A stretch of DNA of 37,045 nucleotides, taken from NCBI GenBank assembly GCA_024407875.1, contig JAKSVT010000019.1:1-37045 (forward strand). The letters are read 5' to 3'. The position numbers were made by a program, and so were the translations under genes. The notes below the pieces were generated by a model. That model saw nothing but the letters and a program-made list of their open reading frames with translations, searched no databases and was not told where the DNA came from. This stretch comes from Alphaproteobacteria bacterium (GTDB lineage Bacteria; Pseudomonadota; Alphaproteobacteria; CAAGCB01; CAG-977). Positions within the stretch are counted from its first letter, which is position 1. Every line of letters starts with the position of its first letter. Shown piece by piece: positions 171 to 4,706 of the stretch.

Positions 171-380
171 TTAAATCTTATCGTAATTTCCACAAGGAAT
201 AAACCTTGGATTCTTGTCTCCCTAAATTACACCATCTGCGTTTTCGCAAATATCTTTATAAACATCTGGATCTAATGTTATATTTTCTCCTGCTGAAATA
301 GCTTTTAAATCATCATCTTTTAATTCAACGAGTTCGTTTTCTTTTGTTTTTTCGATAGTATTTTTTTCTGTTTTTTCCAT
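171..380 (-). pseudogene. Leader-peptide paralogue A, interrupted by an in-frame TAG
   Basis: This copy starts at ATG 378-380 after the SD TTGGAG. It encodes a 52-residue peptide ending at TAG 222-224. The leader reads MEKTEKNTIEKTKENELVELKDDDLKAISAG (31 residues), matching the other copies, and then gives ENITLDPDVYKDICENADGVI. If the TAG is read through, the same frame continues GDKNPRFIPCGNYDKI to a TAA at 171-173. That gives a total of about 69 residues, the size of the intact paralogues, so the TAG looks like a nonsense mutation in a once longer peptide. TAG is a normal stop elsewhere here, for example in the ATP-grasp gene. Alternatively the 52-residue form is the real product. Only the leader is related to known signals; the tail is unrecognised. 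Confidence 0.6.
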
Positions 381-390
381 GGCTGTTCTC

Positions 391-466
391 CAATTTTGAA
401 TTTACTCAATTTGGGGTGTTACTAATTCGCTTCACTTGTTATAAATATGTTGTCGTTAAACACATT
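391..466. repeat. 76-bp direct repeat, copy 1 (tail of peptide B plus spacer)
   Basis: These 76 bases are identical to 4457-4532. On the minus strand the repeat covers the last codons of peptide B (FNDNIFITSEAN and stop), the spacer, and the region just upstream of the SD of copy A. The second copy has the same position relative to peptide G and stub H. Perfect identity points to recent duplication or gene conversion. Confidence 0.95.
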
Positions 467-619
467 TGTGTCTGCCCCCAAAACCTTTCCCTCGATAATT
501 GGACGTACATGGATGTCCTGTTCCCCTGAACCAACTGTAATTGTTGACATATCTTTTAATTCAACAATTTCGTTTTCTTTTGTTTCTTGTTCAGTAGCTA
601 ATTTATTTTCTTTTTCCAT
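422..619 (-). CDS. Leader peptide paralogue B (double-glycine-type leader, variable tail)
   Basis: This 65-residue ORF starts at an ATG with SD TTGGAGAAAAGCC before it. Residues 1-30 form the shared leader (MEKENKLATEQETKENEIV, then ELKD-MSTITVG). This copy lacks the two acidic residues found before the M in copy C (LKDEDM becomes LKDM). The pattern ELx4Lx2(I/V)xAG resembles leaders cleaved and exported by C39-peptidase ABC transporters. That is motif-level knowledge, and here VG replaces GG. The tail SGEQDIHVRPIIEGKVLG... has no Cys and is unlike most siblings, but its last 14 residues (NVFNDNIFITSEAN) are identical to those of copy G. The function of the mature part is unknown. Confidence 0.65.
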   Translation of the reverse strand: MEKENKLATEQETKENEIVELKDMSTITVGSGEQDIHVRPIIEGKVLGADTNVFNDNIFITSEAN

Positions 620-704: not shown

Positions 705-893
705 TCATATCCCTGAAATATGGAACCAACTGGTCCATTTTGATTCAGAGTTTTTGTCATACCCATTATTGTGGGGTTCTAAAACTTGATCCTTTGAACC
801 AGCTGTAATTGTTGACATATCTTCGTCTTTTAATTCAACGATTTCGTTTTCTTTAGTTTCTTGTCCTGCTTTTAATTTATTTTCTTTTTCCAT
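705..893 (-). CDS. Leader peptide paralogue C (double-glycine-type leader, variable tail)
   Basis: This is a 62-residue ORF with leader MEKENKLKAGQETKENEIV + ELKDEDMSTITAG, the cleanest match in the array to the double-glycine signal consensus. The tail SKDQVLEPHNNGYDKNSES + KWTSWFHISGI is rich in Asn, Asp and Trp and has no Cys. The DNA for PHNNGYDKN is part of a 26-bp element also found at 3331-3356 and 3398-3420, so this tail shares a building block with copy E. The upstream DNA (AAGAGAACAATC before ATG) is weaker as an SD than in other copies. It is the first minus-strand gene left of the AbiE insertion. Confidence 0.65.
   Translation of the reverse strand: MEKENKLKAGQETKENEIVELKDEDMSTITAGSKDQVLEPHNNGYDKNSESKWTSWFHISGI
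751..776. repeat. 26-bp tail-module repeat, copy 1
   Basis: TTTTTGTCATACCCATTATT followed by GTGGGG. On the minus strand it encodes PHNNGYDKN inside peptide C. Related copies are at 3331-3356 and 3398-3420. Confidence 0.8.
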
Positions 894-3077: not shown

Positions 3078-3252
3078 TTAATGTAAATCGGAAGGGTCGA
3101 TAGTGGGAGGAGTAGCTTGGTAGGTTTTCCCGCCAATAACGAAAGTCATTGTTACTTTTCCTGCAGGAACAGTTGCTAAATCATCGTCTTTTAATTCAAC
3201 GATTTCATTTTCTTTTGTTTCTTTGATAGTATTTTTTTTCTGTTTTTTCCAT
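3078..3252 (-). pseudogene. Leader-peptide paralogue D, frameshifted at an A8 tract
   Basis: The start ATG (3250-3252) has SD TTGGAG, as in the intact copies. After ATGGAAAAAACAG the gene has eight A residues where copy A has seven. The strict frame therefore ends after 15 codons at TGA. Dropping one A restores TIKETKENEIVELKDDDL + ATVPAG and a tail KVTMTFVIGGKTYQATPPTI + DPSDLH, ending in TAA 3078-3080. The remaining frame is intact, which fits either a recent frameshift or a slippage-prone switch. Long A tracts are known sites of both polymerase and replication slippage. Confidence 0.6.
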
Positions 3253-3330: not shown

Positions 3331-3356
3331 TTTTTGTCACACCCATTATTGTGGGT
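3331..3356. repeat. 26-bp tail-module repeat, copy 2
   Basis: TTTTTGTCACACCCATTATT followed by GTGGGT. It marks the end of copy E: the stop codon of its frame lies inside the element. Confidence 0.8.
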
Positions 3357-3511
3357 CCCTTAATATACCGGGATAAGAAAAAATCAGTGATGTTTTGTTT
3401 TTGTCCCACCCATTATTGGGTGTTCCTGAACCAGCTGTAATTGTTTCTAAATCATCATCTTTTAATTCAACGAGTTCGTTTTCTTTTGTTATCTGTAGTG
3501 CTATTGAATTA
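3346..3511 (-). pseudogene. Leader-peptide paralogue E, start missing
   Basis: The frame directly following peptide F on the minus strand gives ITKENELVELKDDDLETITAG (the leader from its middle on), then SGTPNNGWDKNKTSLIFSYP + GILRDPQ, stopping at TAA 3346-3348. The first half of the leader and its SD and ATG are absent, and no start codon precedes the match in this frame. The upstream sequence is the end of peptide F. It is probably a recombination product. Translation by reinitiation after F cannot be excluded but has no obvious start. The tail begins and ends with copies of the 26-bp module. Confidence 0.5.
3398..3420. repeat. Tail-module repeat, copy 3 (shortened)
   Basis: TTTTTGTCCCACCCATTATT followed by GGG. 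It encodes PNNGWDKN at the beginning of the tail of copy E and is related to 751-776 and 3331-3356. Confidence 0.75.
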
Positions 3512-3688
3512 TTAAGGACAACCCTTAATATACATAACGCATGCTGTATTCCCTTTAAATACAGATTTCTTAATTTCTATTTCAATGTCATTATAACCTG
3601 CTGAAACATTTTTCAAATCTTCGTCTTTTAATTCAACAATTTCGTTTTCTTTTGTTTCTTGTTCTGTTTTTAATTTTTTTCTTGACAT
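3512..3688 (-). CDS. Leader peptide paralogue F (altered N-terminus)
   Basis: The 58-residue form starts at ATG 3686-3688 (MSRKKLKTEQETKENEIV, then ELKDEDLKNVSAG). A longer frame reaches back to 3712 but neither ATG has a good SD. The usual TTGGAG...CCATGG start region seen in A, B, D and G is absent, so the 5' end was probably exchanged. The leader otherwise matches and ends in AG. The tail YNDIEIEIKKSVFKGNTACV + MYIKGCP has two Cys and two Lys-rich stretches. Expression is uncertain because of the missing SD. Product function is unknown. Confidence 0.55.
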   Translation of the reverse strand: MSRKKLKTEQETKENEIVELKDEDLKNVSAGYNDIEIEIKKSVFKGNTACVMYIKGCP

Positions 3689-4418: not shown

Positions 4419-4456
4419 AGGTTGTTAATTTATTTCCTTTTTCCTTGGTTATTCTT
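4419..4456 (-). pseudogene. Leader-peptide stub H
   Basis: On the minus strand ACCAAGGAAAAAGGAAATAA and the next bases match the first codons of the intact copies (ACCATGGAAAAAGAAAATAA), but ATG has become AAG and the SD GGAG has become GAAG. Homology ends after about ten codons, next to the barrel gene's hairpin. It is a dead leader fragment marking a rearrangement junction. Confidence 0.55.
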
Positions 4457-4532
4457 CAATTTTGAATTTACTCAATTTGGGGTGTTACTAATTCGCTTCA
4501 CTTGTTATAAATATGTTGTCGTTAAACACATT
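4457..4532. repeat. 76-bp direct repeat, copy 2 (tail of peptide G plus spacer)
   Basis: Identical to 391-466. It covers the last codons of peptide G and the spacer to stub H, so the junction B-A is duplicated as G-H. Confidence 0.95.
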
Positions 4533-4706
4533 GCTAAACTCAGGTATACCTTTTAAACCAAGTTCTACGCAACGTCTACAATGGAGTTTTTCTAAATCCT
4601 GATCATCTGAACCCACTGTAATTGTAGACAAATTTTCATCTTTTAATTCAACGATTTCGGTATCTTTTGTTTCTTGTTTGGTAGTTAATTTATTTTCTTT
4701 TTCCAT
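4488..4706 (-). CDS. Leader peptide paralogue G (double-glycine-type leader, variable tail)
   Basis: This 72-residue ORF is the longest and the first of the array in its reading direction. It has SD TTGGAG before ATGG. The leader is MEKENKLTTKQETKDTEIV + ELKDENLSTITVG. The tail SDDQDLEKLHCRRCVELGLK + GIPEFSNVFNDNIFITSEAN contains a CRRC pair, which could form a disulfide or bind metal. Its last 13 residues and the spacer behind are identical to copy B. A promoter for the array should lie in the AT-rich 270 bp to the right, which is shared divergently with trpB. Function is unknown. Confidence 0.65.
   Translation of the reverse strand: MEKENKLTTKQETKDTEIVELKDENLSTITVGSDDQDLEKLHCRRCVELGLKGIPEFSNVFNDNIFITSEAN

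Follow-up and report, generated by a model that had tools for sequence, protein, structure and literature searches.

Peptide D is one of several small peptide genes in the window, that is, the whole stretch of 37,045 nucleotides analysed here. It begins with an intact ribosome-binding site and start codon, passes through a run of eight A's and then meets a stop codon, while a longer frame lies open behind the run. The locus raises the question of whether the extra A marks a gene that has been lost, a gene that is switched on and off, a gene whose product is rescued during expression, or an error in the sequence. The evidence presented below indicates that D is probably a recently inactivated copy, a pseudogene produced by a slipped-strand event in a lineage-restricted family of small secreted peptides evolving by birth and death.

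Structure of the peptide D gene

On the (-) strand, the start codon of D can be read directly as the ATG at 3252-3250, which is preceded by a good ribosome-binding site (AATTGGAGAACTACCATGG) and followed by GAAAAAAAA, the segment containing the A8 tract (Table 1). The initial codons are ATG GAA AAA ACA GAA AAA AAA TAC, and the frame as started from this ATG reads MEKTEKKYYQRNKRK and then TGA, meaning that the 5' frame harbours a homopolymer whose change in length breaks it. With the one added A, translation runs for only 15 codons and yields neither leader nor core. The broken frame and its early TGA had been pointed out in a preliminary description made from the sequence, which placed the tract at codons 5-8; the eight A's actually occupy codons 5-7. 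The same description held that the frame behind the tract is open with leader and tail kept, and this is borne out: KKNTIKETKENEIVELKDDDLATVPAG joined to KVTMTFVIGGKTYQATPPTIDPSDLH continues uninterrupted to the TAA at 3080-3078, encoding the rest of the family leader and a core of 26 residues.

No ATG, GTG or TTG usable as a leader start was found in the body frame, in or before the D leader, and the body carries no second disabling change. The D core scores against the core of an intact copy of the same genome (G000:C12:74444) at a level reached by 2 of 1000 shuffles. D is alone in the family in having a proline before the AG motif, a position taken by S, T, V, I, A or D in the other copies, which can be regarded as a faint sign of relaxed constraint.

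Table 1. Position of the peptide D elements, of the neighbouring copies and of the exporter locus (window coordinates, except for the exporter)
Feature	Position	Strand	Description
Peptide D gene	3078..3252	(-)	SD and ATG intact; leader frame broken; body frame open to TAA
A8 tract of D	3232..3239	(-)	Frameshift site; A7 in nine in-frame relatives
Premature TGA of D	3205..3207	(-)	After 15 codons; read directly
Remaining D leader	3159..3231	(-)	NTIKETKENEIVELKDDDLATVPAG; out of frame with the ATG
D core and stop	3078..3158	(-)	KVTMTFVIGGKTYQATPPTIDPSDLH; resembles the core of the intact copy at G000:C12:74444 onward
Copy A	222..380	(-)	In frame; A7 at 361-367; nearest relative of the D leader
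Copy B	422..619	(-)	In frame; leader shorter
Copy C	705..893	(-)	In frame; heads the C-B-A array; preceded by a promoter-like box
Copy E	3340..3513	(-)	Leader 5' end and start codon lost
Copy F	3512..3688	(-)	Frame open; 5' end altered; without family promoter box or clear ribosome-binding site
Copy G	4488..4706	(-)	In frame
Exporter locus	G000:C18:17325-25759 (L078:8325-16759)		HlyD, C39 ABC, second ABC, substrate-binding-like protein, TolC

Neighbouring copies and arrays

The copies around D form two arrays in contrasting condition, F-E-D being damaged throughout whereas C-B-A is intact and preceded by a promoter-like box. This box, CCGTTAYAC..TATAA, is conserved about 30-40 bases before the ATG of array-head copies (for example at about 935-919 of the window) and is absent before array-internal copies, as well as before F. 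Between the two arrays lies an AbiEi-like (DUF6088)/AbiEii type IV toxin-antitoxin pair (1135-2737), flanked by 68-base direct repeats (959-1026 and 2791-2858) that are 97% identical and carry a terminator-like hairpin. The pair may have been inserted or duplicated into what was one older peptide array.

Two further repeats were observed in the peptide genes of the window. Copies B and G share a 104-base stretch, 92% identical (363-466 and 4429-4532), that spans the core end (NVFNDNIFITSEAN) and the DNA behind it, which points to a recent duplication or to recombination among the copies. In addition, a 33-base repeat (CCCATTATTGTGGG...) occurs at 751-783, 3331-3363 and 3398-3430, inside and behind the cores of C and E, and the matching residues, HNNG(C/Y)DKN or similar, are present in cores elsewhere (L057, L065, L073). 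Such an element may be a mobile micro-repeat from which new cores are built.

The peptide family and its losses

An iterated profile run over the fetched regions, comprising 870 kb of the window's genome (540 kb in the case of the tract counts) and, from a sister species, 519 kb, gave a total of 61 copies. Of these, 31 belong to the window's genome (G000) and 30 to the sister genome (G003), a horse-faeces Alphaproteobacteria MAG of the record series JAKSVU, with one doubtful copy (L066:1975) and two truncated at contig ends. A single-sequence search found the leader 30 times in the 1.77 Mb of G000. No match to the leader family was found in the two other genomes of the genus (G001 and G002, the congeners without peptides) or in 57 further relatives; viral contigs contained no relatives of the family either. 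Among the genomes searched, the family is confined to two species of one genus. Pfam and NCBIfam offer no model or family for the peptides, and no leader match exceeded the cut-offs.

Each copy encodes a leader of about 32 residues (MEKENKL..EQETKENEIVELKDEDLSTITAG) followed by a variable core. The leaders end in AG, VG or GG motifs, as is found in GG-type leaders, and the cores behind them are hypervariable, reaching up to 64 residues. In seven of the 61 copies a usable in-frame start is missing, a condition reached by at least four routes: slips in the tract (three copies), 5' truncation (two copies), loss of the start codon and another 1-nt loss. Slippage in this tract does not account, then, for four of the seven. 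One pair of copies, L057:10642-10820 and L057:11484-11653, has identical cores (INGLPTITITAQPSGLCDDSHNCSYP), with the start codon of the second lost (GTA). The family would be renewed by duplication, core shuffling and decay, and losses probably persist because the copies are many and individually dispensable. With a broken frame, no alternative start and other copies decaying around it, D has the features of a pseudogene in a multicopy family.

Recurrent slippage at the A-tract

The tract belongs to leaders of the MEKTEKNTI or MEKTEKKTI type, in which Lys-, Asn- and Glu-rich codons written with A create a run of seven A's after a G; other leader subtypes are without it. It is present in 12 copies, nine of which, distributed over both genomes, have A7 and are all in frame; copy A is one of them, as the preliminary description had it. 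The remaining three are broken, namely D (A8) and two copies of the sister genome, one in G003:C37 (L072:6043, A8) and one in G003:C42 (L065:8064, A6). In a tree of upstream and leader DNA the three fall on separate branches, which implies at least three indels at one seven-base site. Slipped-strand replication would have inserted one A in D, and the run would have slipped separately in the two sister-species copies.

The same tree places D beside copy A, which is in frame, as its sister (support 0.97), on a branch that does not exceed the branch of A in length. Together with the preservation of leader, core, ribosome-binding site and stop, this favours recent inactivation; the preliminary description had likewise argued against old decay. 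No ortholog of the D core with which tract lengths could be compared was found in the sister species, in the genus search or in viral contigs.

The genome background was used to judge how exceptional these breaks are. The genome has 31% GC, and the coding strands of 374 intact genes in 540 kb sampled from it contain 294 A7 and 55 A8 runs, so that an A8 run is in itself nothing unusual, while coding runs of nine or more A's are depleted (5 observed versus about 60 expected). Breaks affect three of the 12 tracts in the family versus none of 129 tracts of A>=7 in genes conserved between the two genomes, the latter being a control conditioned on intact genes (Fisher p=0.0005). Moreover, tblastn comparisons across species (73 and 75 genes) revealed neither split genes nor homopolymer frameshifts. 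The tract accordingly looks like a genuine hotspot of indels in copies that are presumably dispensable. A mismatch-repair defect could be ruled out as the cause of the slippage, since each of the four genomes of the genus has full-length mutS and mutL genes.

A candidate exporter

Each of the two genomes with peptides encodes one C39-peptidase ABC exporter (in G000:C18 and G003:C47), and none was found in the two congeners without peptides. At the G000 locus, the C39 ABC gene is accompanied by genes for a TolC protein, for an NHLP-type HlyD and for a further ABC protein, which is of the TIGR03797 type. The score of the HlyD exceeds the NCBIfam cut-off; the ABC proteins match NHLP models best, yet below their cut-offs. 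The leader would most likely be removed and the core exported by this single NHLP-type exporter with its HlyD and TolC partners, which apparently serves some 30 scattered orphan precursors. LanC-like, YcaO and SPASM modification enzymes were found in none of the four genomes of the genus, and the likely product is a set of exported peptides devoid of the corresponding modifications. Inactivation of small peptide genes by slippage at A-runs is an ordinary event in AT-rich genomes. The family is the more unusual object here: each genome combines some 30 scattered precursors, whose leader is conserved and whose cores are hypervariable, with a single exporter.

Switching, rescue and sequence error as alternatives

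The alternative that survives best regards the A7/A8/A6 tract as a contingency switch, in which slipped-strand mispairing turns single exported peptides ON or OFF in subpopulations; it is judged unlikely. Three of the 12 tract copies are OFF at exactly this spot, in both directions and independently, and a contingency locus would also yield such a recurrence of A6 and A8 at one tract. Codons 5-7 are, in addition, the most effective position for a switch. The loss of D cannot be told apart from a recent OFF state, there being no second disabling change and only a short branch. A back-slip could restore the frame, and the present state is in this sense reversible by mutation; there is no sign that this is used as a switch.

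Against the switch stand the intact MutS and MutL and the finding that all nine in-frame copies have A7, a run of ordinary length in this genome and not an expanded one; other genes often contain A7 and A8 runs, which are stable there. The other leader subtypes of the family are without the tract, and the other broken copies are either more damaged or broken in its absence: L072:6043, for example, has additionally lost its ATG. Both other members of the array of D, E and F, show 5' damage. Finally, the comparison is one of paralogues, with one genome per species, and contains no ON/OFF pair of a single locus. What remains of the slippage-based phase variation suggested in the preliminary description is a recurrent slip site (A8, A8 and A6 in 12 copies of two species), and regulated switching finds no support. 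It is rather improbable that one exporter for about 30 peptides, combined with an A7 contingency tract in one leader subtype, allows subpopulations or strains each to secrete a different subset through independent slippage in single copies.

Transcriptional slippage, also put forward in the preliminary description, or +1 ribosomal frameshifting on the A8 could give some in-frame product, with D expressed at a low level, a reading with very little probability. It would fit an AT-rich genome and a run of eight A's, and rescue by slippage has been reported for poly(A) genes with frameshifts in Blochmannia and Buchnera (reviewed in PMC3017870). However, D requires that one A be deleted from A8, and deletion slippage by E. 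coli RNA polymerase was not detectable on any poly(A) run that was assayed, its insertion slippage on poly(A) occurring only from A8 up (PMC6260861). In Buchnera, a transcriptome-wide analysis provided no case of a transcription indel restoring a frame (PMC5574713). Furthermore, the many intact genes with an in-frame A8 show that slippage on such a run cannot be strong, and D is unlikely to be rescued to any useful extent. Ribosomal frameshifting by -1 leads to the wrong frame, D needing +1 or -2, or one A fewer.

An assembly or sequencing error is the least probable source of the extra A, for even though the genome is a fragmented draft (47 contigs, 97% complete), probably metagenome-derived, and homopolymers are error-prone on some platforms, the unbroken A-runs of conserved genes, the cross-species comparisons free of homopolymer frameshifts and the 55 in-frame A8 runs in intact genes make an artefact very unlikely. 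Slipped-strand inactivation of a copy that would be dispensable, with the A8 presumably fixed, is retained as the probable explanation of D.

Comparison with known systems

The predicted export machinery resembles that of NHLP/NHLM bacteriocins (TIGR03794, TIGR03796, TIGR03797), homologues of all three components and a TolC being present in G000. It departs from it in ABC subunits that remain below the equivalog cut-offs and in leaders to which no leader model of NCBIfam/Pfam, NHLP and Nif11 included, gives a match. Modified RiPPs differ in turn by their LanC-like, YcaO or SPASM enzymes, none of which was found in the four genomes of the genus.

With respect to the frameshift itself, the poly(A) genes that carry frameshifts in Buchnera and Blochmannia share with D an AT-rich genome, a single indel in an A-run and an otherwise intact frame, but most of them are conserved and single-copy, and their tracts are often longer, whereas D is one of about 31 spare copies (PMC3017870). 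Switching by 5' poly(A) tracts has its precedent in swrA of Bacillus subtilis and inlA of Listeria, where an A-run of similar length in the first codons suffers a one-base change that, as in D, leads to a stop after few codons (PMC2831843). In these single-copy genes switching was measured, at 1e-4 to 1e-5 for A8/A9 in swrA and at 5.5e-7 for A6 to A7 in inlA (PMC2831843), while D is known from the comparison of paralogues.

The closest parallel in terms of product is the nap island of Neisseria, whose small peptides NapR and NapC are bacteriocin-like, carry a GG-type leader, have an exporter of the C39 type and are probably switched by poly-G and poly-T tracts (PMC11798529). The Nap tracts (poly-G of 6-12, poly-T of 8/9) are polymorphic across thousands of isolates (PMC11798529), in contrast to the fixed-looking A7, A8 and A6 found here among paralogues of one genome per species. 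Should the tract prove polymorphic in populations, the homopolymer switching of GG-leader peptides suggested for Nap would extend to a large repertoire of gut peptides that share one exporter.
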